Assembly (NCBI RefSeq): GCF_019396355.1
Contig: NZ_JAHKRK010000011.1
Coordinates: 1 to 64,000, forward strand
Direction of reading: 5' to 3'
DNA length: 64,000 bases
From: Pseudonocardia nigra
Lineage (GTDB): Bacteria; Actinomycetota; Actinomycetes; Mycobacteriales; Pseudonocardiaceae
Below the pieces are notes generated by a model. That model did no database searches. It had not been told where the DNA came from and saw nothing but the letters and a program-made list of their open reading frames with translations. The position numbers and the translations under genes are program-made. Positions 1 to 18,106 of this stretch are shown piece after piece (the stretch's first letter is position 1; each line of letters begins with the position of its first letter).

Positions 1-108
1 CGGGAAGGCCCCCAGGCCTCAGACTTTGCTTCGGGCTAGACGCACCAATGCCAACCGAGCTCAGCCGGACCCGACCCGATTCTCATACCTCGTGGCGGCC
101 GAAGGCCA

Positions 109-134
109 TGGGGGACTTTGCTGCAACGTCCCCA
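109..134 (-). terminator. hairpin after DUF2537 gene
   Basis: A short hairpin with arms TGGGGAC and GTCCCCA lies just past the stop codon of the minus-strand membrane protein gene. Its loop carries TTTGCTGCAAC, also seen in the hairpin near 3.2 kb. It probably ends the trmH-DUF2537 transcript. No long T run follows. Confidence 0.4.
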
Positions 135-142
135 GGCGGGTC

Positions 143-697
143 TCAGCCCAGCAGGCCCAGGAGGAGCACCACCCATGCGGCCGCCAGCCCGGCGGCCGCG
201 CCCAGCGCGAGCCAGCGCCAGAACGGCATGCGCCGCATGAGGTAGAGCGACGGCGCCAGCCCGCACCCGATGAGCAGGTTCGCCGGCACCCAGAGCAGTC
301 CGAACGCCTCGGCGAACGCGTGGCACAGCACGATGTCACCCATCGCCACGAGCACCGCGAAGAACGCCGCGACGGTGAGCCCGGTGGCCCACGGCGTGGG
401 GCCCGGCGGGTTCGGCGCGAGCCGCGGGATCGGTCCCGTGACGCCGACGCTGATCGACTCCGTCGTCCCCGTCACGGGGTCGGTGAGGTCCACGGGCCTG
501 CCGAGCACGTCCGCCACCCGAGCGGCGAGCTGACGGCCCCGCCGCTGCAGCAACGCCTGCTCCTCCGGGCCGCCGGCCCGCGTCACGGTCGCCGCGAACG
601 CCCCCCACTCGCTCAGCGCGTCCTGCAGGTCCCCGGGCAGCGGCGGATCCCCGGGCCGGCGCTCGCCCACCACGACTCGTCCCCCAGCGACCTCCAT
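143..697 (-). CDS. DUF2537 family membrane protein
   Basis: A 184-residue protein with a soluble N-terminal half (about residues 1-100) and three hydrophobic segments in the C-terminal half (roughly 102-120, 125-150 and 160-182), so probably anchored in the cytoplasmic membrane by its C-terminus. Length and layout fit the actinobacterial DUF2537 family, whose function is unknown. The ATG lies 5 bases beyond the stop of the upstream methyltransferase gene, so the two are almost surely co-transcribed. In mycobacteria a membrane protein gene also sits next to a SpoU-type methyltransferase gene (from memory). The family call is by pattern recognition only. Confidence 0.7.
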   Translation of the reverse strand: MEVAGGRVVVGERRPGDPPLPGDLQDALSEWGAFAATVTRAGGPEEQALLQRRGRQLAARVADVLGRPVDLTDPVTGTTESISVGVTGPIPRLAPNPPGPTPWATGLTVAAFFAVLVAMGDIVLCHAFAEAFGLLWVPANLLIGCGLAPSLYLMRRMPFWRWLALGAAAGLAAAWVVLLLGLLG

Positions 698-702
698 CCG
701 GG

Positions 703-1515
703 TCAGCCTAGAGCGACTCCGACCGCATGGAAGGCCACGGCTGCCGCCGTGGCGACGTTCAGCGAGTCGACCCCGGACGCCATCGGGATCCGGACGCGCA
801 CGTCGGCGGCGGCCAGCGCCGCGTCCGTGAGCCCGGGCCCCTCCGCGCCCAGCAGCAGCGCCACCCGCTCCCCCGCCAGGCCCGACGACGCCAGTGGCGC
901 AGCGTCCGCCGCCGGCGTCAGCGCGGCCACCCGCAGCCCGGCGGCGCGCAGGACGTCCAGCGACGCCGGCCACGGGCCGGGGAGCTCGGCGAACGGCACC
1001 CGCAGGACGTGGCCCATCGACACCCGCACGCTGCGGCGGTAGAGCGGGTCGGAGCAGCGCGGACCGAGCAGCACGGCGTCCACACCGAGCGCGGCGGCGT
1101 TGCGGAACAGCGCCCCGAGGTTCTCGTGGTCGTTCACCCCCTCCAGCACCGCGACGACGCGCGCGTCGCGCACCAGCTCGGCAGGGTCCGGCGGCGCCGC
1201 GCGGTCCGCCACGGCCAGCACGCCCCGGTTCAGGTGGAACCCGACGACCTCCGCCATCGTCGCGGCGTCCGTCGCGTAGGCCGGAACGTCCAGCCCGGCC
1301 AGGTCGGGTGCGAGCTCGTCCAGCCGCCGCGGCACGCCCAGCAGCGACCGCACCGGGTACGGCGAGTCGAGCAACCGGCGCACCACGACGACCCCCTCGG
1401 CGATCACCAGCCCGCGCCCTCCGGGTCGGTCCGGGCGCCGGTCGGCGGTGGTGAGGTCGCGGTAGTCGTCGGCGCGCGGGTCGGCCGGTTCCGTGATCGG
1501 CGTGATGGTGGCCAC
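703..1515 (-). CDS. TrmH/SpoU family RNA 2'-O-methyltransferase
   Basis: Probable SAM-dependent RNA ribose methyltransferase of the SPOUT class, acting on rRNA or tRNA. Visible family motifs are the N-terminal substrate-binding region, the NHENLGALFRNAAALGVDAV stretch (motif 1), LLLGAEGPGL (motif 2) and the C-terminal IPMASGVDSLNVATAAAV (motif 3, part of the SAM-binding knot). I chose the GTG at 1515 because the family-like sequence starts there; an in-frame start at 1554 would add 13 arginine-rich residues. About 270 residues is normal. The exact RNA target cannot be told from sequence. It leads a two-gene unit with the DUF2537 gene. Confidence 0.85.
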   Translation of the reverse strand: MATITPITEPADPRADDYRDLTTADRRPDRPGGRGLVIAEGVVVVRRLLDSPYPVRSLLGVPRRLDELAPDLAGLDVPAYATDAATMAEVVGFHLNRGVLAVADRAAPPDPAELVRDARVVAVLEGVNDHENLGALFRNAAALGVDAVLLGPRCSDPLYRRSVRVSMGHVLRVPFAELPGPWPASLDVLRAAGLRVAALTPAADAAPLASSGLAGERVALLLGAEGPGLTDAALAAADVRVRIPMASGVDSLNVATAAAVAFHAVGVALG

Positions 1516-1655
1516 GGTTCGGCATCGTCGCAGGCCACCTCGCCGTGATCGCATCGGTCATCCGGTCGGCCGTAGCGGCGAGGTCACTGTTGTGTCACGG
1601 TGGACAACCGCCCGGGTTCCCGGGCGTGCCCGGGGGGCAGGGAGGCAGCGCAGGT

Positions 1656-3164
1656 ATGGGCCAGGACGTCGGCCGGACCACGTTCAGTCGGCGTGATCGG
1701 CAGCTCTACCGCGCGAAAGTGCAACGGTGCCTCGACGCCCTCGCGGTGATGCTGCGCGAGCACCCGTTCGCCCGCGACGAGCCGATGACCGGCATCGAGG
1801 TCGAGCTCAACCTCGTCGACCACGACCTCGCGCCCGCGCTGTCCGGCGCCGACGTCCTCGACGCCATCAACGGCACCGAGTTCCAGTCCGAGCTCGGTCG
1901 CTGGAACCTCGAGCTGAACCTCCCGCCGCGGCCGCTGCCGGGTGACCAGTGGCGGCACCTGGAGCTCCAGCTGCTCGACGAGCTCACGGTCGTCCGGTCC
2001 AAGGCCCTCGACTGCGGCTCCCAGCTCGCCGTCATCGGCATCCTGCCGACGCTGGAGCAGCGCCACCTCGTCGTCGACGCCCTGTCCCCCGATCGCCGCT
2101 ACTCCATGCTCAACGAGCAGATGCTCAGCGCCCGCGGGGAGCCCATCCGCCTCGACATCGCAGGCGACGACCCGTCGGGCCGCCACGGCGTCGGACCCGA
2201 GCACCTCACGGCCGACTTCGACTCGATCGCGCCCGAGGCGGCGTGCACGTCGATGCAGCTGCACCTGCAGGTGCACCCGGACGCGTTCGCCGGCTACTGG
2301 AACGCCGCGCAGTGCCTGGCCGGGGTGCAGCTCGCCGTCGGCGCGAACTCCCCGTTCCTGCTTGGGTCACGGCTGTGGGCCGAGACGCGCATCCCGCTGT
2401 TCGAGCAGTCCTGCGACGTCCGCACGCCCGAGCTGCGCAACCAGGGCGTCCGGCCGCGGGTGTGGTTCGGCGAACGCTGGATCACCTCGATCCTCGACCT
2501 GTTCTCGGAGAACGGGCGCTACTTCCCCGCGCTGATGCCGGTCACCGAGGACACCGACCCGATGGCCGAGCTCGAGGCGGGCGAGGTGCCGGGGCTCGAC
2601 GAGATGCGGCTGCACAACGGCACGATCTGGCGCTGGAACCGCCCGGTGTACGACGTGGCCGACGGCGTGCCGCACGTGCGCGTGGAGAACCGGGTGCTCC
2701 CGGCGGGACCGACCCCCGTGGACATGGTCGCCAACGCGCTGTTCTTCTACGGGCTGCTGCGTGTGCTCGTCGAGGCCGAGCGGCCGCTGTGGAGCTCGAT
2801 GTCGTTCGAGGCCGCCGAGGAGAACTTCACCACCGCGGCCCGGCACGGCATGGAGGGCCCGCTGTACTGGCCCGGTACCGGCTGGATCCGTCCCGACGAG
2901 CTCGTGCTGCGCAAGCTGCTGCCGCAGGCCGCCGAGGGCCTGGCCCGGTGGGGCGTGGCGAGCGAGGTCACCGACCGCTACCTGCCGATCATCGAGCAGC
3001 GCTGCGTCACCCGCCGCACCGGTGCCGCGTGGCAGCTCGACACCGTGGGCGCGCTCGAGGCCCGCGGCGCCGACCGACCCACCGCGCTGCGCGGCATGCT
3101 CGCGCGGTACCTGGAGTCGTCCGCGGCGAACGAGCCGGTGCACGACTGGCCCGTCCCCGGCTGA
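1656..3164 (+). CDS. glutamate-cysteine ligase family (GCS2-like) protein
   Basis: A 502-residue protein of the carboxylate-amine ligase/GCS2 superfamily, whose members join the gamma-carboxyl of glutamate to an amine with ATP. Family marks include GIEVELNLVD near residue 44, the NLELNLPP strand, the STSMQ-like segment CTSMQLHLQV, the AVGANSPFLLG loop and RVENRVLPAGPTP. The ATG at 1656 follows GGGAGGCAG at a good distance. Actinomycetes carry several such paralogues (gamma-glutamylcysteine formation for ergothioneine, F420 side chains, uncharacterised ones), so the substrate is open. It is transcribed divergently from trmH and stands alone. Confidence 0.75.
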   Translation: MGQDVGRTTFSRRDRQLYRAKVQRCLDALAVMLREHPFARDEPMTGIEVELNLVDHDLAPALSGADVLDAINGTEFQSELGRWNLELNLPPRPLPGDQWRHLELQLLDELTVVRSKALDCGSQLAVIGILPTLEQRHLVVDALSPDRRYSMLNEQMLSARGEPIRLDIAGDDPSGRHGVGPEHLTADFDSIAPEAACTSMQLHLQVHPDAFAGYWNAAQCLAGVQLAVGANSPFLLGSRLWAETRIPLFEQSCDVRTPELRNQGVRPRVWFGERWITSILDLFSENGRYFPALMPVTEDTDPMAELEAGEVPGLDEMRLHNGTIWRWNRPVYDVADGVPHVRVENRVLPAGPTPVDMVANALFFYGLLRVLVEAERPLWSSMSFEAAEENFTTAARHGMEGPLYWPGTGWIRPDELVLRKLLPQAAEGLARWGVASEVTDRYLPIIEQRCVTRRTGAAWQLDTVGALEARGADRPTALRGMLARYLESSAANEPVHDWPVPG

Positions 3165-3475
3165 GGTCCGCCGCTGCCACGGCAGATCGCCGCCGCACCC
3201 ACCTCCCACCCGTTGCAGTAAAGCCACTTTCCCGCCACGGCATTGCGTGAAAGTGGCTTTGCTGCAATCCGGACGGGCCCGGGCCGCGCGGGCCTCCGCG
3301 TTCACCATCGCAAACCCTCGTCCCGTTCCGCCCCGGAACCGGTGGGCGCACTCCTACAGTCGGTCCCGTTCCGCCGGTGGTCACGGCAGGTGATCGCCGG
3401 TCGGCGCTCCCGACCGTCGAGCGCCTGCAGCACGGGCTGCGGGCGCGATCCCGCGCGCCCGCAAACGGGGGACGC
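3165..3475. other. intergenic stretch before secretion-like operon
   Basis: About 310 bases without a convincing gene. It holds the terminator hairpin of the ligase gene at its start. The promoter of the next operon must lie in 3270-3470, but I see no clear -35/-10 pair. A strong purine-rich ribosome site, ACGGGGGAC, sits just before the ATG at 3476. Confidence 0.5.
3213..3267 (+). terminator. 19-bp stem hairpin terminator
   Basis: Arms 3213-3231 and 3249-3267 pair over 19 bp with one mismatch, around a 17-base loop. It sits about 50 bases after the ligase stop codon. The arm sequence (AAAGCCACTTTC) resembles hairpins at other gene ends in this window. Confidence 0.6.
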
Positions 3476-3547
3476 ATGCCCGAGCGACCCACCCAGTCCA
3501 CCCCGTCCGGCGTCCGCACGCCGCGGACCACCCCCCGCGCCAGGTGA
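3476..3547 (+). CDS. possible 23-residue leader peptide
   Basis: A tiny ORF (MPERPTQSTPSGVRTPRTTPRA and a final Arg) with a strong upstream ribosome site. Its TGA overlaps the GTG start of the next gene in a GTGA arrangement, the classic sign of translational coupling. The next gene has no good site of its own, which supports the idea that ribosomes reach it through this ORF. Rich in Pro, Thr and Arg; no family recognised. It could be a true leader or chance. Confidence 0.35.
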   Translation: MPERPTQSTPSGVRTPRTTPRAR

Positions 3548-4410
3548 CGGCCGTGGCCCGCTTCCGGCTCTTCGGCCGCGCCCCCGCACCGGACCCACCT
3601 TCCCCGCCGACCCCGCCGGCCTACGGGCCGCCGTACGGCCCCCCGCCGGGTTGGGGGCCGCCGCCGGTGGGCGCGGGTGCCCCGACGACAGCGCCGCCGG
3701 GATGGCCTGCGGCAGGCCCCGCCACACGTGCCGCCCGCCCGGCCGTCCCCCGCCCGGTCCCCACGGCCGACCCGCCCACCGACCCCCACGGCTTCCCCCC
3801 GATTCCCGGGCCCCGCAGCGCCGCGCCCACCCCTCCGTGGCCCCGGCCGCCGGCCCCCGCTCCCGAGCCGGCCGAGGCCGCAGCGCTCGCGGGGGCGTTC
3901 GCCGTCGACTACCTGTCGTGGGACGAGGACGATCCGGGCCGCCGCGGGCGCGTGCTGCTCGACTACCTGCCGGCTCCGGGGCGCGACCCCGACCGGCTGG
4001 GCTGGTCCGGGCGGGGCCGTCAACGCGCCGAGTTCGCGCTGCCCGGGCGGGTGCGACCCGACGGCGAGGGCCGCGTGCTCGTCGACGTCCGTGTGCGGGT
4101 CACGCCGTACCGGGCCGTCGGCGACCACGGACCCGAGCCCGCAGCCGCCACCGAACCCGAGCCCGGCATCGCGGGGATCCCGGCCGCTGCGCCCGCCCCC
4201 ACCGGACGGGGGTGGCGCAGCCTTGCGTCGTACTGGATCCGGCTCAGTGTGCCCGTGGTGCTGGAGAACGGGCGGCTGGTGGTCGACGCGTGGGAGGAGA
4301 CACTCGGTGAGGTCCCCGAGCCGCCCCCCGCCGGCCCACCGGCGCCCGACGACCACACGCTGGCCGACGACGACCCGCTCGCCGAGCCGCGCTCCGGGAC
4401 CGCATGGTGA
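3544..4410 (+). CDS. proline-rich protein, possibly TcpC/conjugation-like
   Basis: A 288-residue protein. Residues 1-115 are proline/glycine/alanine-rich (PPAYGPPYGPPPGWGPPP repeats), as in proteins that meet other proteins at the membrane. Residues 120-245 form a folded domain with alternating beta strands (VLVDVRVRVTPY; ASYWIRLSVPVVLENGRLVV) that resembles the second domain of TcpC-type conjugation proteins. The tail is acidic. It heads a run of five genes with overlaps or gaps of only a few bases, including a wall hydrolase and a single-span protein. I infer a secretion or DNA-transfer role; nothing in the sequence proves it. Confidence 0.5.
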   Translation: MTAVARFRLFGRAPAPDPPSPPTPPAYGPPYGPPPGWGPPPVGAGAPTTAPPGWPAAGPATRAARPAVPRPVPTADPPTDPHGFPPIPGPRSAAPTPPWPRPPAPAPEPAEAAALAGAFAVDYLSWDEDDPGRRGRVLLDYLPAPGRDPDRLGWSGRGRQRAEFALPGRVRPDGEGRVLVDVRVRVTPYRAVGDHGPEPAAATEPEPGIAGIPAAAPAPTGRGWRSLASYWIRLSVPVVLENGRLVVDAWEETLGEVPEPPPAGPPAPDDHTLADDDPLAEPRSGTAW

Positions 4411-5066
4411 GCCGCCCACGCACCCCCGTGATCGCCGGGCTGAGCGGTGACGCCGGCACCAGCACGCTCGCCGCGGCGCTGCACGCCCGCGACGCCGGGC
4501 CGCTCGACGGAGCCGCCGACGTCATCGCCTGCCGGGGCACCGATGCCGCGCTGCGGCAGGCGGCCGTCCTCGCGGGTGCGCCGACCGGCCCGCACCCCGT
4601 GCTCGCGGTCCTCCTCGAGCCCGGCCTGCCCACCGACGGCGTGGCGACCCGGCTGAGCGCCCTGCAGCCGCGCTTCGGAGCCGTCGTCACACTCCCGCAC
4701 GTCGGCCGCTGGCACGGTGCCCCTACCCCCTCCGAGGAGGCCGCCGCCGTGCTCGCACTGCCGGCCCACCACGTCACGCGGCCCCTTCGGGCCTACGCGG
4801 CCGCCCTCCGGCTGGTCGTGGCGGCCGTCGTCGGGTCCGGCCTGCCGGCCCGCAGCGCCCCGCCCACCCTGATCCGGCCGCGCCCCACGGCGCCGGCCCA
4901 CGCCCCGCGCGTCATCCGGCGGGCGGCTCCCGTCCGGCCCGCCCGGTTGCTCGGGCCGGCACCGGTCCGGGCGGAACCGCTGCTGCCCGCAGCACCCGAA
5001 CCCGACGACGACACGCTCGAGGCCGATCACCTGCGCTCGACGGCCGCGGCGGGACGAGCGGGGTGA
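4404..5066 (+). CDS. P-loop-like protein with deviant Walker A motif
   Basis: A 220-residue protein starting ATG within the last codons of the upstream gene (7-base overlap). The N-terminus IAGLSGDAGTSTLAAAL looks like a MinD/ParA-type P-loop, but the usual lysine position reads Thr (GDAGTST), so ATP binding is doubtful. A middle part, residues 70-110, has a sheet-helix pattern. The C-terminal 80 residues are rich in Pro, Ala and Arg and look disordered. Genes like this accompany conjugation-type operons in actinomycetes (from memory). Function unknown. Confidence 0.5.
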   Translation: MVSRPRTPVIAGLSGDAGTSTLAAALHARDAGPLDGAADVIACRGTDAALRQAAVLAGAPTGPHPVLAVLLEPGLPTDGVATRLSALQPRFGAVVTLPHVGRWHGAPTPSEEAAAVLALPAHHVTRPLRAYAAALRLVVAAVVGSGLPARSAPPTLIRPRPTAPAHAPRVIRRAAPVRPARLLGPAPVRAEPLLPAAPEPDDDTLEADHLRSTAAAGRAG

Positions 5067-5069
5067 CGC

Positions 5070-6206
5070 ATGCCCGGCCCGACCCTGCTGCGCAGCCCGC
5101 TCGCGATCGCGCTGGCCGCACTCACCGGTCTGCTGCTGCTCGGTGCCGCCCCTGCTCCGGTGCCGGACACCGTCTCGGGCGTCGACACCGCAGAGCTGCC
5201 CGCGCCTGCGCGCGACTCCCTGCCCCTGATCAGCGAGCTCACCGCGACCCACTGCCCCGAACTGCCGCCGCTGTGGGTGGTGGCCCAGGTGCAGGCGGAG
5301 TCCGGGTGGGACCCGGCCCTCGCCTCGCGGCGGGAGGGCGGGCCCGCGGGGCTCTACCAGTTCGGGCAGCGCAACTGGGTGGCCGCGGGCGGGCAGACCT
5401 GGACGTCGGACCCCCCGTCCGGCGACGCCGACGTCCTGTCCGCGGAGGCGCACCTGCGCGTCGCCGTGCCGTGGGTCTGCGCGAACCTGCGCGCCGTCAC
5501 GGCGCACCTGCAGGCCACGGGCAAGCCCACGACGCCGCTCGACGCCATGCTCGTCTGCCACATCGCCGGGTGCGGCCGCGTGACGGGCAGCGCCACCGGG
5601 ATCCCGGTGGCCGGCGAGGCGAGCTGCGGCGAGCGCTGCGCGGAGGTGGTCCGACGCTACGTGGCGGCGGTGCACTCCAACCTGGAGCGGTTCGCGGCGC
5701 CCGTGCCCGAACCGGCCGCGGCCACTCCGCCCGCCCTGGCCGCCCCCGCGGCCTGGACCGGGGGTGCCACCGGCTGCGAGCTGCCCGATCCCACCGGGGA
5801 CGGCTGCCTCACCGGGGCCACGCACCACGGGCTGGAAGCGGCCGGGGCCGCGTTCGGGGGATGGACCGACGGCCCGACGATCCGGTCGGCCGGGTGCTGG
5901 GACGAACACGCCTGGAACCCCCGCAGCGACCACTCCCGCGGCAAGGCGTGCGACCTGTTCCCCACGGCCCCGGGCACCTTCGCGGAGGGCGCCGACCTGG
6001 ACTCCGGGTGGCGCGTGGCCGAATGGTTCCGCAGCAACGCCGAACCGTTGCAGGTCAAGTACCTCATCTGGCAGGGCCGCTACTGGGACCCGGGCGTCGA
6101 GGACCAGGGCGGATGGGGCCGGCGGTACACGGGCGGCGGGGTCTACGACGTCCGCGACGCCACCGGCGGCCACTTCGACCACGTGCACGTGAGCTTCCGG
6201 GAGTGA
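5070..6206 (+). CDS. secreted transglycosylase/peptidase-like wall hydrolase
   Basis: A 378-residue exported protein. Residues 1-28 are a signal peptide or N-terminal anchor. Residues 62-200 form a lytic transglycosylase (SLT-like) domain: the catalytic Glu is probably E77 in AESGWDP, followed by GPAGLYQFG. A Pro/Ala linker leads to a C-terminal domain (about 225-378) with HSRGKACDLF and HFDHVHVSF, the His-Asp-His pattern of ARB_07466/M15-like peptidoglycan peptidases. Such two-domain enzymes open the cell wall for secretion or conjugation channels. The gene starts 3 bases after the previous stop, so it belongs to the same operon. Confidence 0.75.
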   Translation: MPGPTLLRSPLAIALAALTGLLLLGAAPAPVPDTVSGVDTAELPAPARDSLPLISELTATHCPELPPLWVVAQVQAESGWDPALASRREGGPAGLYQFGQRNWVAAGGQTWTSDPPSGDADVLSAEAHLRVAVPWVCANLRAVTAHLQATGKPTTPLDAMLVCHIAGCGRVTGSATGIPVAGEASCGERCAEVVRRYVAAVHSNLERFAAPVPEPAAATPPALAAPAAWTGGATGCELPDPTGDGCLTGATHHGLEAAGAAFGGWTDGPTIRSAGCWDEHAWNPRSDHSRGKACDLFPTAPGTFAEGADLDSGWRVAEWFRSNAEPLQVKYLIWQGRYWDPGVEDQGGWGRRYTGGGVYDVRDATGGHFDHVHVSFRE

Positions 6207-6210
6207 GGCC

Positions 6211-6819
6211 GTGAACCGCTCGAGACCCGTCGTCCCCGTCATCGCCGCCGCCGCGGCAGCGGCCATCACAGTGCTCGCGCTCGTGCTGGTCGGCGGCGCG
6301 ACCGGCGTCATACCGCCGTCGGGCGAACCGCCGCCAGGGGCCGCGCTCACCGACGAGGACCGGCGGGCGCTGGACGCCGTTCCCGTGGAGCGCGGCGCGC
6401 CGCCCGCCCCTGTGGACCCCGGGGTCGACCTCACCGACCCGGAGGCCGTCGCACGGGCCTACCTCGCCGTGGCGCACTCGGTCGGCGTCGAGGACGCGGG
6501 CCGCACGCACCTGCGCGCCGCGGGCTACGCGGTGCCGGGGAGCCCGCCCGCCACCGTCGGGGTGGTCGTGCTGGACCCGCCGCCCGCCGGGTCGCTGCGC
6601 ACCGCGACGGTCACGGCGCTCGAGCTGGTGGCCGCCGAGGCGGGCGACCGGCGGCGCGGCTACCGGGCCGAGCTCGGCACCGCGACCGGCCCGCCCGGCG
6701 CCGCCGCCGAGGTCACCCTCGTCGGTCGCGACGTGGTGCTGGCCCGCATGCCCGACGGCCGGTGGCTCGTCGCCGCCGACTCACCCGCAACCGCCGATCT
6801 CCCCGCCGGGGAGGACTGA
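6211..6819 (+). CDS. membrane-anchored extracytoplasmic protein, NTF2/VirB8-like
   Basis: A 202-residue protein with one N-terminal transmembrane helix (about residues 9-31) and an outside domain. After a Pro-rich stretch, TDPEAVARAYLAVAHS opens a domain of one long helix plus several beta strands, ending in DGRWLVAADSP. This plan fits the NTF2-like fold of small channel proteins such as VirB8/TcpC, an inference from shape only. The GTG start is 4 bases past the wall hydrolase stop. Operon position suggests it works with that hydrolase at the envelope. Confidence 0.5.
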   Translation: MNRSRPVVPVIAAAAAAAITVLALVLVGGATGVIPPSGEPPPGAALTDEDRRALDAVPVERGAPPAPVDPGVDLTDPEAVARAYLAVAHSVGVEDAGRTHLRAAGYAVPGSPPATVGVVVLDPPPAGSLRTATVTALELVAAEAGDRRRGYRAELGTATGPPGAAAEVTLVGRDVVLARMPDGRWLVAADSPATADLPAGED

Positions 6820-6838
6820 TGCGACAGGAGTGCCCGCC

Positions 6839-8416
6839 ATGATCTTCGAGGACCTCGAGGAGCTGCTCCGGAAGTACCTGTCGACGGGCATCGCCGTGGT
6901 GATCATCCTGGCGGGGCCCGGCACCGGTGCCGAGGACGGCGAGCCCGGAGCGCGGACGGAGCCGTCGGTCGAGGTGATCGAGCCGGGCGGCCGCACGCCG
7001 GAGGAACCGGATCCCACCGGGCGCACCGGTGCGGCCGGGACCGACCCCGACCGGCCGGAGCGGGACCGCGACCGCGCCGCGGACCCCGGACCGGCCGACC
7101 CGGAACCCACCGATCCGGAACCCGCCGAACCCGCCGACCGCGAGCCCCGGGATCGCGCACCGGCGGATCCGGAACCGGCCGACCCGGAACCGGGGGAACG
7201 CGAGGCCCGCGATCCCGAACCCGCCGACCCCGAGCCCGCCGACCGGGACGACGGTGCCGAGCGCGGCGGGCCGACCGGTGAGGACCGCGGGGACGACGAC
7301 GGACCGGGCGACGCGCGGGACACCGGTGACCGTGAGACCGCGGCCGACCGCGACACCGCCGACGGACCGGACGAGCACGAGCCGGGGGCCACCGACCGCT
7401 CCGGAGGCGACGCCGATCGCGACACGGACGAGCCCGACGCCTCCACCCGCAGCAACCGCACGGGCACCGCCGACACTGAGGACGGCAGCGGCGAGGACGG
7501 CAGCGGCGAGGGTGCGACCGCCGCCGAGCGGTACGGCTGGGGCACGCCCAACCGGGTCGACGACTTCTCCGGCGGCAGCGAGCAGTGGGACATCTACGAC
7601 GGGCCCGGGCATGCCGGCAAGGGCATCCGCTCGCCCGACGCCGTCTCGATCGAGGGCGGGATACTCACGATCACCGGTGACTCGTCGGGCACCACGGCCG
7701 GGATGGCCTGGAACCCGGGGCAGAAGTACGGCCGCTGGGAGGGGCGGGTCAAGGCGCCCGCCTCGGACCCGTCCTACAACGCCCTGCTGCTGCTCTGGGC
7801 GGACGCCGAGGACTTCCCCGTCGGCGGCGAGATCGACTTCATGGAGATGCTCGACCACACGCGCCAGACCACGGACATCTTCATCCACTACGGCGCCGAC
7901 AACTCGCAGGTGAACGGCCAGGTCGAGATTGACGGCACCGAGTGGCACAACTGGGCGGTGGAGTGGACGCCCGAGGCGATCACGGCCTACGTCGACGGCG
8001 AGGAGTGGTACCGCACCACCGACACGAGCATCTTCCCGCCGGGGCCGATGCACCTGTGCATCCAGCTCGACTGGTTCCCGGAGGGCGGCCCTCCGGAGGA
8101 GTCGGTGATGCATGTCGACTGGGTGAAGCAGTACTCCCTCGAGGACGGGGCGGCCGACGCCGGCAACGGGGACGGCGCCGACCGGGACGACGACCGGGAC
8201 GACACCGACCGGAACGAGGGCCGCGACGGCACTGACGGCGAGAACGGCGCCAAGGGCGAGGACGGCACTGACGGCGAGGACGCGAGCGCGACCGCCGAGG
8301 GACGCGACGGCGCCGACGGCGAGAGCCGCAACGAGGGCGACCGGGAGGATGACGAGCGGGAGGGCTCCGTGAACCCGATCCGCGAGGCCGTGCGCCGGAC
8401 GTTCTCCTGGGGCTGA
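6839..8416 (+). CDS. GH16-family glucanase-like protein with charged flanks
   Basis: A 525-residue protein in three parts. Residues 1-28 are an amphipathic/hydrophobic start rather than a clean signal peptide. Residues 35-225 are a highly acidic low-complexity region with repeats of ADPEP. Residues 230-440 are a glycoside hydrolase family 16 domain: the catalytic motif EIDFME has E331 (nucleophile), D333 and E336 (acid/base), and WHNWAVEWTPEAITAYVDG is typical. The tail (about 440-510) is again charged, with DGTDGE-type repeats. ATG 6839 is preferred over GTG 6830 because ACAGGAG precedes it at 8 bases. It lies 19 bases after the secretion-like genes. Likely cuts or remodels beta-glucan-type polysaccharide outside the cell. 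Confidence 0.75.
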   Translation: MIFEDLEELLRKYLSTGIAVVIILAGPGTGAEDGEPGARTEPSVEVIEPGGRTPEEPDPTGRTGAAGTDPDRPERDRDRAADPGPADPEPTDPEPAEPADREPRDRAPADPEPADPEPGEREARDPEPADPEPADRDDGAERGGPTGEDRGDDDGPGDARDTGDRETAADRDTADGPDEHEPGATDRSGGDADRDTDEPDASTRSNRTGTADTEDGSGEDGSGEGATAAERYGWGTPNRVDDFSGGSEQWDIYDGPGHAGKGIRSPDAVSIEGGILTITGDSSGTTAGMAWNPGQKYGRWEGRVKAPASDPSYNALLLLWADAEDFPVGGEIDFMEMLDHTRQTTDIFIHYGADNSQVNGQVEIDGTEWHNWAVEWTPEAITAYVDGEEWYRTTDTSIFPPGPMHLCIQLDWFPEGGPPEESVMHVDWVKQYSLEDGAADAGNGDGADRDDDRDDTDRNEGRDGTDGENGAKGEDGTDGEDASATAEGRDGADGESRNEGDREDDEREGSVNPIREAVRRTFSWG

Positions 8417-8435
8417 GCCGCGGTTGCGCACACGC

Positions 8436-8469
8436 ATCGGGGCCCAGGCCGGTCGGCCGGGGCCCCGAT
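8436..8469 (+). terminator. terminator after GH16 gene
   Basis: Arms ATCGGGGCC and GGCCCCGAT, with a second inner stem GGCC/GGCC, form a very stable hairpin 20 bases after the GH16 stop. It could work in both directions. Confidence 0.6.
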
Positions 8470-8491
8470 GGCGTTCCCGAACTGCCACGTC

Positions 8492-8521
8492 ATGCACCCG
8501 AGGGCGAACCCTCGGATGCAT
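8492..8521 (-). terminator. hairpin after MFS gene
   Basis: ATGCA plus CCGAGGG pairs with CCCTCGG plus TGCAT across a 4-base loop, with one mismatch pair. It lies 55 bases beyond the stop of the minus-strand MFS gene and probably ends that transcript. Confidence 0.55.
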
Positions 8522-8559
8522 TCCTCTGACGCGCCGCTCCCACCACGAAGCGACATCGC

Positions 8560-8578
8560 TGAGGTTAGCCTAACCTCT
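8560..8578. promoter_or_regulatory. IdeR/DtxR-type iron box
   Basis: The 17-base palindrome GAGGTTAGCCTAACCTC (8561-8577, 8-1-8, perfect) matches the IdeR/DtxR consensus TTAGGTTAGSCTAACCTAA at all but the outermost bases. It overlaps the stop codon of the MFS gene instead of lying before a start codon. No real gene follows on either strand within 140 bases: on the minus strand an ATG at 8556 opens only a shadow frame. Confidence 0.65.
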
Positions 8579-9840
8579 ACTTCCTCGGCAAGTCCTGGCT
8601 CACCCGCCGGTTGCGGCGCGCCAGCACCAGGCCCACCACCAGCACCGCAACCACGGTCACGCACCCGCCCAGCACCAGCGGCGCGCGGCCGCCCAGCCGC
8701 TCGGCCAGGAGACCGAGGAGCGGGGCTCCCACCGGCGTCCCGCCCAGGAACAGCAGCATGTACAGGCCCATCACCCGCCCGCGCATGCTGGGCTCCACCG
8801 ACATCTGCACGGTCGCGTTCGCCGCGGTGGTGAACGTCAGCGCCGCGAGCCCCACCGGCACCAGGACCGCGCCGGTCAGGGCGAACGTCGGCATCAGCCC
8901 GGTCGCGGTCTCGAGGATCGCGAGCGCCAGCGCCGACCCGGCGACCAGCCGCAGCCGGGGGCGTCCCCGGCGCCGCGCCGCGAGTGCCGCGCCCAGCACC
9001 GAGCCGACGGCCAGCAGCGTGGTGAGCAGGCCGTACGCCTCCGCGCCGAGCTCGAAGACGTTGCGGGCCAGCACCGGCAGGGCCAGCTGGAGGTTGGTGA
9101 GGGCGAACGTCGACACGAAGAACACCAGCGCCAGCGCGGCCACGAGGTCGGGCCGCCCGCGGACGTAGCGCAGCCCGGCCCGCAGCTGGCCCGGCGCCCG
9201 GGGCACCGGGACGATGCGCTTGCAGCCGCACCGGATCCATCCGGGCGAGGGCGATCACCACGCCGGCGAAGCTCACCGCGTTGATCAGGAAGACCCACCC
9301 GGTGCCGACGGCCACGATGAGCAGCCCGGCCACCGACGGCCCGACGATCCGCGCGAGGTTGAACGTCACCGCGTTCAGCGCCACGGCATTGCCGACCTGA
9401 CCGACGCCCACGAGCTCGGGCACGAACGCCTGGCGGACCGGCACGTCCAACGCCGAGAAGCAGCCGACCAGCAGGCACAGCAGGTAGACGTGCCACAGCG
9501 CCACCACGCCGGTGACGTCGGCCAGGCCCAGCGCGAGGGCGCACACCCCGAGCGCGACCTGGAGCGCGATGAGCATCCGGCGCTTGTCGACGCGATCGGC
9601 GAGCACCCCGCCCCAGAGCGAGAGCAGCAGTGTCGGGGAGAACTGGGGCGCGGCCGCCAGCCCCAGCGCGGCGGCGTTGCCACCGGACAGGTCCAGCACG
9701 AGCCAGTCCTGCGCCACGCGCTGCATCCAGGTGCCGACCAGCGAGACGACCTGACCGGAGGCGTAGCGCCGGTAGTTCGGCACCCGCAGCGAGGCGAACA
9801 TCCCGCCGCCGGTCGACGTGGTCTCCGGCGGCGCGCTCAC
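8577..9840 (-). pseudogene. MFS transporter, frameshifted as sequenced
   Basis: A drug/siderophore-type major facilitator permease broken into two frames. The first (from GTG 9840) covers helices 1-6, including the RVDKRRMLIA loop and VPVRQAFVPELVG, and runs to RMDPVRLQ. The family sequence resumes one base off as VPVPRAPGQLRAGLRYVRGRPD and continues to the stop at 8577 (helices 7-12). The slip lies at about 9205-9225 and needs one extra base or two missing bases. Joined, the protein would be about 420 residues. The start lies 19 bases after the NCS2 permease stop. A half iron-box TTAGGTTA (9847-9854, plus strand) precedes it, so an iron-related exporter (EntS-like) is possible. Confidence 0.75.
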
Positions 9841-9859
9841 TTTCCGTTAGGTTACACAA

Positions 9860-11296
9860 CTATCCCGCGAAGAGCGCCTGGAGCGGCCCGACCGCGAAGT
9901 AGCCGACGAACGCGACCGCCACCACCCACATCAGCGGATGGATGATCCGTGCCCGGCCCGTCGCCGCCGCGAGCACCACGTAGGCGACGAACCCGGCGCC
10001 GATCCCGTTGGCGATCGAGTATGTGAACGGCATGACGACGATCGTCAGGAAGGCGGGCAGCGCCACCCGGAACTCGGTGAAGTCAATGCCGGTGATCTGG
10101 CGCATCATCAGCGCGCCGACGATCACGAGCGCCGGGGCCGCCGCCTCGATCGGCACGATCGAGTACAGCGGAGTGAAGAACATCGCGAGCAGGAACAGCA
10201 CACCGGTGAGCACGTTCGCAAGGCCGGTGCGCGCCCCCTCGGCGATGCCGGACGCCGACTCGATGTAGACGGTGTTGGACGAGGCCGACCCCACACCGCC
10301 CGCCACGGCGCCCGCGCCCTCGACGATGAGCGCCTTCCCGACGCCCGGCAGCTGCCCGTTCTGGTCCACGAGCCCGGCCTGCTTGCCCAGCCCGGTCATC
10401 GTGCCCATCGCGTCGAAGAAGTTGGCGAGCACGAGGGTGAACACGAGCAGCGCGACGGTGATCAGGTCCAGCCGGGCGAACGCGCCGAGGGACACGGCCC
10501 CGACCAGGGAGAGGTCGGGCAGCCCGACGATGCTGTCGGGCAGCGTCGGCACCGCCAGCGACCAGCCCTTGGGGTTGGTGCCCGCCGACGGGCCGACCTG
10601 GGCGATCGCCTCGACGACGATCGCGATGATCGTGGTGACCACGACGCCGAGCAGGATCCCGGCCCGGACCCCGCGGGCCACCAGCAGGCCGGTGATCAGC
10701 AGCCCCACGACGAACACGAACGTGGGCCAGGACGCGATCGAGTTGCCGATGCCCAGGCCCACCGGCACCGTGGTGCCGGCCTCGTCGGCGATCCGGCGCA
10801 CGAACCCGGCATCGACCAGACCGATGAACGCGATGAACAGCCCGATGCCGACGGCGATCGCCGCCTTCAGGTCCGCCGGGACGGCATTGAACACCGCGGT
10901 GCGGAAACCCGTCACGGCCAGCAGCACGATGATCAGGCCGTCGATCACGACGAGGCCCATCGCCTCGGGCCAGGTCATCAGCGGCGCGAGCGTGACCGCC
11001 ACGAGCGTGTTGATCCCGAGGCCCGTCGCGATCGCGAACGGGTAGTTGGCGACGAGCCCGAACAGCAGCGTCATCACGCCGGCGACCAGCGCGGTGACGG
11101 CCGCGACCTGCGGGACGGTCAGGATGTTGCCCACGACGTCGGTCTTCGCACCCGGTCCCTCGGGGACGAAGCTGCCGAGGATCAGCGGGTTGAGCACGAT
11201 GATGTACGACATCGTCACGAACGTGACGAGCCCGCCGCGCATCTCGCGGCCGACCGTGGAGCCGCGCTCGGACACGCGGAAGAGACGCTCGATCAT
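9860..11296 (-). CDS. NCS2 family purine permease (AzgA-like)
   Basis: A 478-residue polytopic membrane protein with about 12-14 hydrophobic segments. The start TFVTMSYIIVLNPLILG, the FIAFIGLVDAGFV segment and NFFDAMGTMTGLG are hallmarks of the adenine/guanine/hypoxanthine permease branch of the NCS2 family (proton-coupled uptake). The ATG at 11296 follows GAGGAGG at a good distance. Base preference among purines cannot be read from sequence. The gene is divergent from the DUF2530 gene. I see no purine riboswitch in the 250-base upstream region. Confidence 0.85.
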   Translation of the reverse strand: MIERLFRVSERGSTVGREMRGGLVTFVTMSYIIVLNPLILGSFVPEGPGAKTDVVGNILTVPQVAAVTALVAGVMTLLFGLVANYPFAIATGLGINTLVAVTLAPLMTWPEAMGLVVIDGLIIVLLAVTGFRTAVFNAVPADLKAAIAVGIGLFIAFIGLVDAGFVRRIADEAGTTVPVGLGIGNSIASWPTFVFVVGLLITGLLVARGVRAGILLGVVVTTIIAIVVEAIAQVGPSAGTNPKGWSLAVPTLPDSIVGLPDLSLVGAVSLGAFARLDLITVALLVFTLVLANFFDAMGTMTGLGKQAGLVDQNGQLPGVGKALIVEGAGAVAGGVGSASSNTVYIESASGIAEGARTGLANVLTGVLFLLAMFFTPLYSIVPIEAAAPALVIVGALMMRQITGIDFTEFRVALPAFLTIVVMPFTYSIANGIGAGFVAYVVLAAATGRARIIHPLMWVVAVAFVGYFAVGPLQALFAG

Positions 11297-11547
11297 GACA
11301 CCTCCTCGCTGGCGCTCGTCGGCACCACGATCGTCGATGCTGTGCTTGTCGGTGATCTCGCAAGCTCGATCACGCCGCAGACACTAAGCCGTGTCCAGTT
11401 GATCAGCGCCGATGGGATTCGCGATGCGGAAGGGGTAGGACCCGTCGTACCTGGCACAACACAGCCAGTGGCCATCCGGGCACATGGACCGCGTTCGTGA
11501 CCCACCGGCCGCGGCCCCGTTGCGGCGTTCCGCCGTACGCTGGGCGC

Positions 11548-11799
11548 GTGGCCGATCCCCCACCGCTCCCCCGCGGGTTGAGCGACGTGCGCGCCGTCGT
11601 CGCCGTCGGCACGGCGCTGTGGCTGCTGGGCGCGGCAGCGCTGCTGGTGGCCTGGCTGGCCGGCCGGCAGCCGCTGGGCATCGGGTTCACCACGTGCGTG
11701 GCCGGGGCCGTGCTGGGCGCCATGGGCTGGGGCATCTTCTCCTGGCAGCGCACGGCCGCGCGGCGCGGCTCCCGGGCCGCGCAGCAGGGCCTGGAGTGA
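11548..11799 (+). CDS. DUF2530 family small membrane protein
   Basis: An 83-residue protein with two transmembrane helices (about residues 16-37 and 44-63) and a basic C-terminal tail, fitting the actinobacterial DUF2530 family. GTG 11548 gives the family length. Function unknown. In mycobacteria the DUF2530 gene lies a few genes from the SpoU methyltransferase (from memory), consistent with shared gene order here. Confidence 0.65.
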   Translation: MADPPPLPRGLSDVRAVVAVGTALWLLGAAALLVAWLAGRQPLGIGFTTCVAGAVLGAMGWGIFSWQRTAARRGSRAAQQGLE

Positions 11800-11829
11800 T
11801 CCGTACCCGCACTGAATAGGCTCGGACGC

Positions 11830-12567
11830 ATGACCGATCGACCCACCGCCGTCGTCACCGGGGCCAGCTCGGGCATCGGGGCGGCCACCGCCCGCGCGCT
11901 CGGCAAGGCCGGATTCCACGTGGTACTGGGTGCCCGTCGTGTCGACCGGTGCGCGGAGATCGCAGCCGAGATCGACGGCACCGCGCTGCGTCTGGACGTC
12001 ACCGACACCGAGTCCGTGGCCGCGTTCGCCGCGGCCGTGCCCGACTGCCGCCTGCTGGTGAACAACGCGGGCGGCGCGAAGGGGCTCGAGCCCGTGGCCA
12101 AGGCGGACGAGGACGCCTGGCGCTGGATGTACGAGACCAACGTGATCGGCACGCTGCGGGTGACGAAGGCGCTGCTCCCGGCACTGCTCGCCTCCGGTGA
12201 CGGGCACATCGTCACCGTCACCTCGATCGCCGCGCTGGAGGCCTACGACAACGGCGCCGGCTACACAGGCACCAAGCACGCGCAGGCGATGCTGCACCGC
12301 ACGCTGCGCGGCGAGCTGCTGGGGCAGCCGGTCCGGCTCACCGAGATCCTGCCCGGAATGGTGGAGACCGAGTTCTCGCTCGTCCGGTTCGCGGGCGACG
12401 CCGACCGGGCGGCCGGCGTCTACCACGGAATCACCCCGCTCATGGCCGACGACGTGGCCGACGTGATCGCGTTCGCCGCCACCCGTCCCTCGCACGTGAA
12501 CCTGGACCAGATCGTGCTGAAGCCGCGCGCCCAGGCCAACGCGATGCGGGCGCACCGGGAGCGCTGA
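11830..12567 (+). CDS. short-chain dehydrogenase/reductase
   Basis: A 245-residue classical SDR. It has the NAD(P) glycine motif TGASSGIG (10-17), NNAG (78-81), catalytic S132 and the Y145-x3-K149 pair in YTGTK. Basic residues after the second strand (GARRVDR) favour NADP(H). The sequence resembles the YdfG/serine-3-dehydrogenase branch (PGMVETEFS). Substrate unknown. It starts 30 bases after the DUF2530 gene and may share its transcript. Confidence 0.85.
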   Translation: MTDRPTAVVTGASSGIGAATARALGKAGFHVVLGARRVDRCAEIAAEIDGTALRLDVTDTESVAAFAAAVPDCRLLVNNAGGAKGLEPVAKADEDAWRWMYETNVIGTLRVTKALLPALLASGDGHIVTVTSIAALEAYDNGAGYTGTKHAQAMLHRTLRGELLGQPVRLTEILPGMVETEFSLVRFAGDADRAAGVYHGITPLMADDVADVIAFAATRPSHVNLDQIVLKPRAQANAMRAHRER

Positions 12568-12601
12568 GCCCGAGCCACTGCCGACGGCGGCGCACGGATC
12601 G

Positions 12602-12717
12602 CCCGACTCGCACACCCGTACAGCCCGACTCGCACACCCGTACAGCCCGACTCGCGGGCGGTGACGGGTCGCAGCGCGCGAGTCGGGGCCTGCGGGTGCG
12701 CGAGTCGCGGGCCCGGG
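12602..12717. repeat. 22-bp tandem repeat with inverted partial copies
   Basis: The unit CCCGACTCGCACACCCGTACAG occurs exactly twice (12602-12623, 12624-12645), starts a third time (12646-12655), and is followed by two inverted pieces carrying GCGAGTCG (near 12675 and 12702). The region can fold into alternative hairpins and lies between the SDR stop and the next promoter, so it may help termination. Not CRISPR: there are no spacers. Confidence 0.6.
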
Positions 12718-12728
12718 CCCGATCCCGC

Positions 12729-12772
12729 ATGTCGGACATGTCGTTGACGTCGGACGTCTTCACGATCAAGAT
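12729..12772 (+). promoter_or_regulatory. promoter with two FadR/GntR-type operators
   Basis: Two perfect 11-base palindromes, ATGTCGGACAT (12729-12739) and ACGTCGGACGT (12747-12757), have centres 18 bases apart, about 1.7 helical turns. Both fit the FadR-subfamily GntR operator pattern yGTM-N-KACr. A plausible promoter, TTGACG (12744-12749) and CAAGAT (12767-12772) with a 17-base spacer, overlaps the second site, which suits repression. The genes behind are an MFS transporter and an SMP-30 lactonase. No GntR gene is in the window. Confidence 0.55.
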
Positions 12773-12830
12773 GGGGCGGCAAGCGCATTCCGCTCGTCCT
12801 GGTCCGGTTCGCCGATGAGTGAGGTCCGAC

Positions 12831-14025
12831 GTGCCCGACGTGTCCAGCCCGGCGCGGAAGGCGTGGGTTCCGCGCGCCCATCCTCTGTCGTGGGCGACGC
12901 TGGCCGTCACCACGGGCGCGATACTGATGACCGCGGTGGACGGCGGGATCCTGCCCGCCGTCCTGCCGGCCATCCAGGAGGAGTTCCAGCTGAGCTCCGC
13001 GCAGGCGGGACTGGTCAACTCCGTGTTCTTCGGCGGCCTCATCGTCGGTGCGCTGCTGTTCGGGTGGATCTCCGATCGGATCGGCACCGGCTACCGGCGC
13101 ACGTGGACGTGGAACGTCGCGATGGCGCTCGGCATCCTCGGCGGCGCGCTGACGTTCGGGCTGGCGGGCAGCTTCGCCCGTCGGCGTCCACCACACCGGC
13201 TTCCCGCTGGGACAGTTCCTCACCGGGGCGCTCATCGCGGCGGTGCTCGGCGTGGCGGGCTGGCGCGAGGCGTTCCTCATCATCCCGCTGCTCGGCATCC
13301 CGATCATCGTCGCGCAGACCTTCCTGGGCACGCGGCGCAACCAGGCGAAGGTCTACGACTGGATCGACGCCCGCGGCCTCACCCGTCCGCTGCCGGAGTT
13401 GTCCACCCGCGTGTCGGGGAGCGCACTCGAGTCCGTCAAGGAGGCACTGAGCAGCGCGAACGTGCGCTGGTCCGTGGTCCTGATCTTCCTGTTCCTGTGG
13501 GCGGAAGCGGGCGCTGTCACCTTCCTGACCAAGCAGATGGTCGACCAGGGGATGAGCCTCGCGGAAGCGGCGCTGCTGTCCGGCGTCTCAGGGCTCACCG
13601 GCTGGATCGGGCAAGTCGTCTGGGGCGCCTGGTCCGACCACGCCGGCCGCAAGTTCGCGATCCGCTTCCTGGTGATCGGCTGGTCCGTCGCTCTGCTCGG
13701 GATGATCTTCATCGTGAGCCCGGCGAGCGCGTGGATCGTCCTGCTGGTGTGGGGGCTGTTCCGCAACGCCCCGTTCCCGGTGGTCTACGCGCTGCTCATC
13801 GACTCGGTGCCGAGATCGGCGGGCACGGCGATGGGCATCATGATCGGCCTGGCCCTCGGCGTGTCGGGGGTGCTCGCTGCCGCGGTGTCCGGCTGGATCA
13901 TCGATGAGGCCGGGTTCACCGTGCACTACGTCGTGCTCGCCGCGATCTGTCTGCTCGGCCTGGTCCCGCTCGCCAGGATGACCGAGACCGTGCCCGTCGG
14001 TGGGCGGAAGCAGGAGGACGCATGA
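12831..14025 (+). pseudogene. MFS transporter with internal deletion
   Basis: A sugar-acid-type major facilitator gene. GTG 12831 (after GAGGT) begins helices 1-3 (AILMTAVDGGILPAVLPAIQ; FGWISDRIG). At about 13176-13180, just after FGLAGSFA, the sequence jumps frame and continues as VGVHHTGFPLGQFLTGALIA to the stop at 14025. A normal member has roughly 35 more residues here, the helix 4-5 region with its RFLxGxGxG-like motif, so more than 100 bases and the frame are missing. The transporter should not work as written. The last bases overlap the lactonase ATG by four (ATGA). Confidence 0.7.
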
Positions 14026-14924
14026 CCGATCTGATCGCACCCGGCGCCACCCTGGAGAATGTGGCCTCCGGGGCCGTCTGGGCCGAGGGGCCGGTGTGGC
14101 TGCCGGCGCGCAGGGCGGTCCGGTTCAGCGACATCCCCAACAACCGCATCCTGGAGTACTCCGAGGACTCCGGCGAACTCGCCGTCTACCGTGACGACGC
14201 GGAGTTCACCAACGGGCGCACGCTCGACCTGGACGGCTCCGTGATCCAGTGCTCGCACGGCAGGCGCGCGGTGGAACGCGACCGCGACGGCGTCATCGAG
14301 GTCCTCGTGGACTCGTGGGCAGGGAAGCGGCTCAACTCGCCCAACGACGTCGTCGTCAAGAGCGACGGCACCATCTGGTTCACCGACCCGTCGTACGGCA
14401 TCAAGAAGCCGGGCGAGGGTCACCCCGGTGAGCTGGAGTACGGCGACCACTACGTGTTCCGCCTCGACCCCCGTGACGGCTCCCTGACCCCGGTCGTCAT
14501 CGATGTGGAGACGCCCAACGGTCTGGCGTTCTCCCCGGACGAGTCGCTGCTCTACGTCGCGGACTCGGCGATCTCACCACCGGACGGCCGGCGCGACCCC
14601 GCCCGGCCCGGCGGGCACTCGATCCACTGCTACGACGTCTTCGACGGGCGTCTCTGCAAGAACGGCCGTGAGTTCGCCGAGGTGGGCCCCGGCCTGCCGG
14701 ACGGGTTCCGGGTGGACGAGGCCGGTCGCATCTGGACGTCGAGCCTGGACGCGGTGCAGGTGTTCGCGCCCACGGGCGAACTCGTGGAGCGGATCCCGGT
14801 GCCGGAGAAGATCGCGAACGTATGTTTCGGCGGCGACGACGGCCGCACGCTCTACATCACGGCCACCTCCAGCCTCTACCGCATCCGCACCACGGTGCGG
14901 GACGCGGTGGCAGCCCGGACCTGA
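14022..14924 (+). CDS. SMP-30/gluconolactonase family protein
   Basis: A 300-residue six-bladed beta-propeller hydrolase. Likely metal ligands are E22 in AEGPVW, the Asn of SPNDVV, the Asn of VETPNGLAFS and the Asp of DGFRVDEAG, the family's Glu-Asn-Asn-Asp pattern. Members open sugar-acid lactones such as gluconolactone. The 4-base overlap with the transporter gene and the shared FadR-type operators suggest uptake and hydrolysis of one sugar-acid compound. Confidence 0.8.
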   Translation: MTDLIAPGATLENVASGAVWAEGPVWLPARRAVRFSDIPNNRILEYSEDSGELAVYRDDAEFTNGRTLDLDGSVIQCSHGRRAVERDRDGVIEVLVDSWAGKRLNSPNDVVVKSDGTIWFTDPSYGIKKPGEGHPGELEYGDHYVFRLDPRDGSLTPVVIDVETPNGLAFSPDESLLYVADSAISPPDGRRDPARPGGHSIHCYDVFDGRLCKNGREFAEVGPGLPDGFRVDEAGRIWTSSLDAVQVFAPTGELVERIPVPEKIANVCFGGDDGRTLYITATSSLYRIRTTVRDAVAART

Positions 14925-14926
14925 CG

Positions 14927-15139
14927 CTACGGGCCCGCCGTGTCCTCCGACCGGCGGTGCTCGTCGGCGCCGTCGGCGGGCCGGTTGCCCTCGGCGGCGC
15001 CGGCCACCCGGTCCTCGGAGTCGCGCAGGATCTCCGTGGCCTCGGTCCGCCGGTCCTCCCCGCCGTGCTCGGCCCGCCGTTCCTCGGGCAGCGGCTCGGC
15101 TCGGGTGGCGGTCTGCTCGCTGAGCTCGTCGGGACGCAT
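14927..15139 (-). CDS. small acidic conserved actinobacterial protein
   Basis: A 70-residue charged protein beginning MRPDELSEQTATRAEPLPEE. The RAEPLPEER motif, an ILRDSEDRV segment and a closing RRSEDT are familiar from short, widely conserved actinobacterial proteins of unknown function, thought to be mostly disordered. I chose the ATG at 15139 because the conserved part starts there. Convergent with the lactonase gene, 2 bases apart. Confidence 0.55.
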   Translation of the reverse strand: MRPDELSEQTATRAEPLPEERRAEHGGEDRRTEATEILRDSEDRVAGAAEGNRPADGADEHRRSEDTAGP

Positions 15140-15167
15140 GCCGCCGCGTACCCCGATGGGGCGACCG

Positions 15168-15776: not shown

Positions 15777-15784
15777 GCGTGGTC

Positions 15785-16948: not shown

Positions 16949-17044
16949 CGTCGTCCCCCCAAAGCACTTTCCCCACGATGAGAGACGTCCGAACGCCGTT
17001 CCAGGTTGCCTCACCGCGGTCCCCCGAACGAGGCTACGCGTCGC

Positions 17045-18082: not shown

Positions 18083-18106
18083 GGGGGCCAACGGTAGCCT
18101 CCGACC

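Follow-up and report, generated by a model that had tools for sequence, protein, structure and literature searches.

What is a set of conjugation-type envelope proteins doing on a chromosome beside neither a channel nor a motor? The question is raised by five neighbouring genes, A to E, in a 64,000-nucleotide stretch of Pseudonocardia nigra DNA (positions 1 to 64,000 of contig NZ_JAHKRK010000011.1, our contig C13; hereafter the window), taken from an assembly of 8.49 Mb in 601 contigs. All five genes lie on the plus strand within positions 3544-8416, with overlaps or gaps of at most 19 bases. The initial annotation described them as an orphan secretion- or conjugation-like operon ending in a glycoside hydrolase family 16 (GH16) enzyme, and its coordinates and most of its domain calls hold. 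Gene order, gene trees and intermediate forms lend good support to descent of the operon from a chromosomal, VirD4-less type IV secretion system (T4SS) of the SCO6880 type in Pseudonocardia. The suggestion of a repurposed remnant also gives the best-fitting reading of the data: with moderate confidence, we regard the locus as a domesticated T4SS operon that lost its channel and motor and retained its envelope-working parts for a job of their own.

Descent from a VirD4-less secretion system

The missing parts were sought in the window by family models. No VirB4-type ATPase is matched by hidden Markov model (HMM) in positions 1-20000, and the operon slot contains no match to an SCO6880-family protein. 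The cmdBCD-like genes (ATPase, SCO6880, SCO6881) are absent from this slot and present in P. bannensis (G032). A Pfam scan of genes A-E detected no relaxase among these five.

The corresponding slot was surveyed in 58 of the 62 genomes of the genus (G006, G020, G028 and G288 were left out). Relatives show this gene order next to the same flanking genes. Such neighbours are visible on one side or both in 57 of the 58 genomes, the exception being G304, whose contig holds no flank. Two genes separate A from the upstream neighbour in G012, and in G283 this neighbour lies about 276 kb off, so that the downstream neighbours alone match. Five genomes carry a near-complete VirD4-less T4SS operon with the order A-B-tm-TrbL-SCO6880-VirB4-C-D, and one has a partial core, A-B-tm-TrbL-C-D, on a contig that ends in D. 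Thirty genomes, the window included, have A-B-C-D without the core, accompanied by GH16 in 29 cases, and four more (G007, G023, G035, G306) are truncated by contig ends or not complete. Rather than a remnant private to P. nigra, the locus is thus an inherited operon of the genus. Scattering of the same genes among relatives, which was looked for as a sign against a single module, was not seen. The proposal of conjugation-type parts without channel ATPases is borne out by relatives in which these genes surround a TrbL-SCO6880-VirB4 core. In G032 the SCO6880-family protein of this core matches NF042935 with 457 bits, the TrbL-like protein matches SCO6881 weakly, and the VirB4-like ATPase has weak VirB4/HerA/TraG matches only. 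An HMM built from four mobile VirD4 copies gave no match in the slot stretches of the 58 genomes.

The direction of change is indicated by phylogeny. In a tree of four flanking proteins, four genomes with the full system (P. spinosispora, P. eucalypti, P. acaciae and one metagenome-assembled genome) branch off first within the genus, and the main clade includes P. bannensis (G032, full system) grouped with P. acidicola (G013, partial core). The chromosomal copies of VirB4, SCO6880 and TrbL each form one clade apart from the mobile copies (12-13 sequences per tree), with G032 as sister to the early-branching genomes in the core-gene trees. With full systems in the early branch and a single origin for the chromosomal core genes, the pattern is more simply read as loss of the core. 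The reverse, in which A-B-C-D(-E) is the older state and a few genomes acquired the core by insertion between B and C, draws on the core-less majority (30 versus five genomes). We consider it very improbable, since the order of the core is identical in all four early-branching genomes, its chromosomal genes are monophyletic, and relatives of B and C flank the same core in mobile clusters.

How many times the core was lost is uncertain. A hand count on the FastTree topology, in which several deep branches have support below 0.25, gives five VirB4 losses if the gene was gained once. An approximately unbiased test (rows split 44 versus 9, with 12 of 65 dropped beforehand) did not reject a tree joining the main-clade rows except G032 and G013 in one clade (p 0.146), and a near-single loss is therefore also compatible with the data. 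Two losses are safe, namely that in G013, where SCO6880 and VirB4 were lost and TrbL was kept, and that in all others, where everything was lost. Gene E either joined the main-clade chromosomal operon later or was lost by the early branch.

In the full systems of the early-branching genomes, D is also followed downstream by a MinD/ParA-like gene (L089 6342-7190, L090 5437-6372, L110 13956-14960, L122 2291-2464). It contains KGG.GKT in L089 and L122, matches Pfam CbiA in L110 (7.5e-11), and has a similar N-terminus in L090.

Candidate scaffolds and hydrolases encoded by the operon

Family scans (Pfam and NCBIfam at E ≤ 1, PHROGs at E ≤ 0.01) assigned A, B and D to no family, and across A-E the NCBIfam matches were all below cut-off. 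The assignment of A and D as NTF2-type scaffold candidates comes from predicted structures. Gene A (3544-4410, plus strand, alternative start at 3553) encodes 288 amino acids from 3544, with a proline-rich N-terminus, a TcpC/VirB8-type NTF2 domain and no transmembrane span. It may be preceded by a leader open reading frame at 3476-3547 (plus strand, 24 codons comprising 23 residues and a stop), which is open as initially annotated and whose stop overlaps the upstream GTG start of A at 3544. An AlphaFold2 model of A, built on a 53-row alignment with a mean predicted local distance difference test (pLDDT) score of 78, has as its top Foldseek match PDB entry 3UB1 (E 3e-5, TM 0.50/0.37). The two structures align in VIA over 115 residues with a root-mean-square deviation (rmsd) of 2.9 and 21% identity, and VirB8-family chains rank behind 3UB1, near Z 10. 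The entry is labelled as an NTF2-like conjugation protein (plasmid), and we take it to be TcpC of plasmid pCW3. The earlier description of A as TcpC-like therefore stands for the predicted NTF2/TcpC fold, but not for a membrane anchor or for the Pfam TpcC family, PF12642 having no match anywhere in the P. nigra genome. The best 19-residue hydropathy of A is 0.82 in the window copy and at most 1.47 among the 58 genus hits, which excludes an anchor by this measure, whereas an A-like protein encoded in a T4SS operon from another family (L114) has a span, with a value of 2.05. The window copy is the single match to A in its own genome.

Gene D (6211-6819, plus strand, 202 amino acids) has one N-terminal span, at about residues 8-28, and a predicted VirB8-type NTF2 domain, in agreement with the initial call of a single-span NTF2-like protein. 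In VIA its AlphaFold2 model (pLDDT 85.8) is followed in rows 1-23 by VirB8-family or related T4SS chains exclusively, headed by DotI (Z 10.9, rmsd 3.9, 119 aligned residues), and other NTF2 proteins come next at Z 8-9. Foldseek E-values, in contrast, rank other NTF2 proteins first, plastid ARC6 among them. The D HMM matched two of 249 genomes of the order, P. nigra itself and one of the same genus.

Between these two genes, B (4404-5066, plus strand, 220 amino acids) encodes a P-loop-like protein with a low-complexity C-terminal tail, which we call MinD-like by its motif, a label of our own. The P-loop-like motif noted initially is present, but an alignment of seven mobile and 14 chromosomal copies places it without the Walker A lysine, and this lysine-less form is common to the window protein and the seven mobile-cluster copies. 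Function of B as an ordinary ATPase is unlikely because the lysine is absent. A further copy of B lies elsewhere in the same genome (C168:26391-26939, E 1.5e-27).

The two candidate enzymes are encoded by C and E. Gene C (5070-6206, plus strand, 378 amino acids) combines a hydrophobic N-terminus, an SLT-like domain and a C-terminal hydrolase-type domain. The SLT match is below the Pfam cut-off (10.9 versus 21.3 bits), as is that of the G032 orthologue (19.0 bits). Glu77, the presumed catalytic residue of this domain, is nearly invariant in an alignment of 20 sequences. In the same 20 sequences the C-terminal half keeps the motifs SDHxxGxACD ... DHVH. This half matches PDB entry 9FLH (E 1.1e-6), and in the variant entry 9FLN alanine replaces the first histidine of the DHVH motif; we presume that it is a hydrolase. 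C-type proteins are also found in Amycolatopsis, Prauserella and Lentzea (67 loci).

Gene E (6839-8416, plus strand, 525 amino acids) is a GH16 glycosidase, as first proposed, by Pfam PF00722 (E 1.1e-11, 45 bits versus a cut-off of 22). It matches beta-1,3-glucanases in PDB (E 1.5e-6) and contains the catalytic motif EIDFME (ExDxxE), a form of which is kept in most first-copy orthologues. The N-terminus contains DLEELLRKYLSTGIAVV, the protein has acidic/Arg-rich linkers, and in many first-copy orthologues, though not in some, an acidic N-terminal segment is followed by a short hydrophobic stretch. In many relatives (L047, L048, L049, L055 and others) a second, more distant GH16 (about 140-180 bits) follows E, and a simple E-x-D-x-x-E search of these second copies was negative in most.

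Scans of positions 3100-8700 for sigma-70 promoters and terminators found nothing, a result weakly informative for such an organism. A long near-perfect inverted repeat (TGCAGTAAAGCCACTTTC ... GAAAGTGGCTTTGCTGCA) occupies positions 3214-3267, between the upstream gene and the operon, and its arms are not found elsewhere in the window. On the other side, the major facilitator superfamily (MFS) transporter gene adjoining E (8577-9859, minus strand) is split into two frames near 9220 relative to a 422-amino acid orthologue (L043), by either a frameshift or an assembly error. An iron-box-like palindrome, TGAGGTTAGCCTAACCTCT, at 8560-8578 has three mismatches to the DtxR/IdeR consensus and occurred in none of 100 shuffles; it sits where the ends of E and the MFS gene converge, in front of neither.

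GH16 in plasmid-borne transfer clusters

A link between GH16 and conjugation-type genes is also found outside the chromosomal slot. A tblastn search with plasmid GH16 identified 20 plasmid records, eight of them from Pseudonocardia, and all eight were typed as mobilizable, MOBF. Each of the eight has a span-less A-like gene upstream of GH16 (96-130 bits with the A HMM). In seven, a MinD/ParA gene directly precedes GH16; in the other (L325), two hypothetical genes lie between MinD/ParA and GH16, and integrase genes lie between A and MinD. The gene after GH16 is an annotated transglycosylase in four plasmids and a long hypothetical in four. SCO6880 and VirB4 are located downstream in six of the eight stretches and VirD4 was seen in two; the L327 stretch is short, and L325 is cut before the point where SCO6880 would be expected. 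The L327 plasmid has an SCO6880 hit at 238966 if G002:C2 is that plasmid. A ninth plasmid (L326) has A-MinD without GH16. The plasmid stretches gave no match to B, C or D, and the plasmid MinD keeps the Walker lysine where it was seen (L111).

The plasmid MinD genes resemble the MinD/ParA-like genes downstream of D in the early-branching systems. L324 and L325 have genes for a WD40-repeat protein and a sigma factor upstream of the A-MinD-GH16 block, and a helix-turn-helix or transcriptional-regulator gene lies just before A in the opposite direction in L324, L328, L330 and L331; these are perhaps control genes.

Two results weigh against a general association of GH16 with these systems and also against our reading of the operon: eight mobile clusters of the genus (L037, L050-L054, L121, L126) have neither A nor GH16, and the four early-branching chromosomal systems have no GH16 at the locus. 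Likewise, A and GH16 occur in none of 20 SCO6880 neighbourhoods of other genera, hand-chosen from the 92 of 298 genomes that exceeded the SCO6880 cut-off. GH16 is thus a feature of one plasmid type and of the chromosomal operon in the main clade. VirD4 is matched in 17 of these 20 neighbourhoods, with none within 20 kb in L239, L240 and L244, hence Pseudonocardia may not be alone in having SCO6880 clusters without VirD4. The T4SS operon of another family that encodes the span-bearing A-like protein (L114) also contains VirB4 (AAA_10), an SLT+M23 protein and a VirD4 match. In the library searched, no paper combined the terms for the GH16 family, type IV secretion and conjugation.

Proposed function of the retained genes and comparison with known systems

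Selection on the retained genes was assessed as dN/dS, the ratio of nonsynonymous to synonymous substitution rates, over the HMM-matched part of 17 close pairs picked by eye, with some members shared between pairs. Among core-less pairs the values are 0.12-0.48 for A (15 pairs), 0.11-0.25 for C (12), 0.16-0.36 for D (9) and 0.08-0.39 for GH16 (13), and three flanking genes have 0.03-0.24. The core-keeping pairs G013/G032 and G012/G283, not counted in these ranges, give 0.23 and 0.61 for A, 0.31 and 0.30 for C, and 0.27 and 0.54 for D, respectively. A, C, D and E are under purifying selection.

Several observations speak against a new job for these genes. B drifts (0.18-0.71 in 14 core-less pairs), and the pairs are not independent owing to the shared members. 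Eight of the 58 genomes have A-B and GH16, lack D, and match C strongly in its C-terminal half only; four have A-B only, four have A with or without a GH16 remnant, one has A-C-GH16 without B and D, and one has nothing. Moreover, A has no export signal, which makes its route to the envelope hard to explain. The graded losses and the loose B may reflect slow decay rather than a new job, leaving a fading relic with little function whose stage differs by species; GH16 remnants of 58-88 bits in three genomes fit the same picture. We nevertheless find such decay unlikely, given the constraint on A, C, D and E, the conservation of the C-terminal motifs of C in all aligned sequences and of the GH16 motif in most first copies, and the 43-74% identity of D to the window copy across 11 orthologues.

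Alternatively, the operon could act in trans, lending its VirB8-like and hydrolase parts to resident conjugative elements. The P. nigra genome does contain a full mobile-type cluster on contig C168 (B-tm-g6-TrbL-SCO6880-VirB4-VirD4-s172-C), with B and C copies of its own, and has A only in the window. The VirB4 of this cluster, 65% identical to the chromosomal copy of G032, is the sole hit of the genome-wide VirB4 search that the initial annotation had proposed, and it lies away from the operon; two further SCO6880 matches in the genome are below cut-off. However, the seven mobile clusters that were read through have their own B and C, and a helper role leaves the fixed chromosomal place unexplained. 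SCO6880 has no hit at E ≤ 0.001 in 20 of the 62 genus genomes. These include ten of the 30 core-less A-B-C-D genomes, among them G001 with two contigs and 100% completeness; seven of the ten are at least 95% complete and three are under 90%. Assembly gaps aside, the operon in these ten cannot serve an SCO6880-type machine. We therefore hold service in trans to be improbable.

Under the favoured reading of domestication, the tm-TrbL-SCO6880-VirB4 block, comprising channel and motor, would have been lost in most of the genus while the envelope-working part stayed. D, as a single-span VirB8-type scaffold, may act with the anchorless A and the P-loop relic B in holding or placing two enzymes at the cell surface. 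C would cut peptidoglycan through its two hydrolase-type domains, and E, tethered or exported via its hydrophobic N-terminus, is predicted to cut a beta-glucan-like polymer. Together the two enzymes might loosen the envelope locally, perhaps in hyphal fragmentation or sporulation, and the operon would offer no channel for any substrate. This biochemical role is inferred from domain content. A bolder and tentative proposal, to which we give less credence, views the operon as a T4SS turned inside out, its scaffold and hydrolases forming a stand-alone envelope-cutting device, and GH16 as an unrecognised working part of one Pseudonocardia T4SS type, plasmid and chromosomal, that cuts glucan at the mating envelope.

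Comparison with known systems shows partial likenesses. A shares the fold of its domain with TcpC (3UB1, Z 13.3) but is span-less, matches only residues 104-223 of the 3UB1 chain and has no Pfam TpcC match. D resembles the VirB8 family (DotI, CagV, VirB8) in having one span and an NTF2-type domain, but it has no sequence-family hit, and other NTF2 proteins score about 2 Z lower. The MOBF plasmids of Pseudonocardia (e.g. pPA12743CP) likewise have an A-like gene, MinD and GH16 upstream of SCO6880-type transfer genes, and differ in carrying SCO6880 and VirB4, in the MinD lysine (kept in L111) and in the lack of B, C and D matches. What is unusual here is that enzymes and scaffold outlived the channel and that GH16 recurs in T4SS operons of the genus. 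The recurrence of GH16 hints that a glycan may act as a barrier to DNA transfer in actinobacteria.

The nearest precedent is cmdABCDEF (SCO4126-4131) of Streptomyces coelicolor, reported to be a chromosomal conjugation-related operon needed for sporulation, whose deletion left transfer of an SLP2-derived plasmid unchanged and whose CmdB, CmdC and CmdD resemble SCO6878, SCO6880 and SCO6881 (PMC2782261). Both cmd and the window operon are thus chromosomal and related to conjugation genes, and the SCO6880 and SCO6881 families occur in the full Pseudonocardia version. The two differ in that cmd mutants have a sporulation phenotype, which is not known for the window operon, and in that cmd kept the ATPase/SCO6880/SCO6881-type genes, whereas the window operon kept the scaffold, the hydrolases and GH16. 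Relative to cmd, the window operon is a complement rather than another instance. While cmd kept ATPase/channel-like genes, Pseudonocardia species display the reverse path in many of its steps at a single chromosomal site, and these stepwise losses among relatives make it testable which T4SS parts can persist without the machine.

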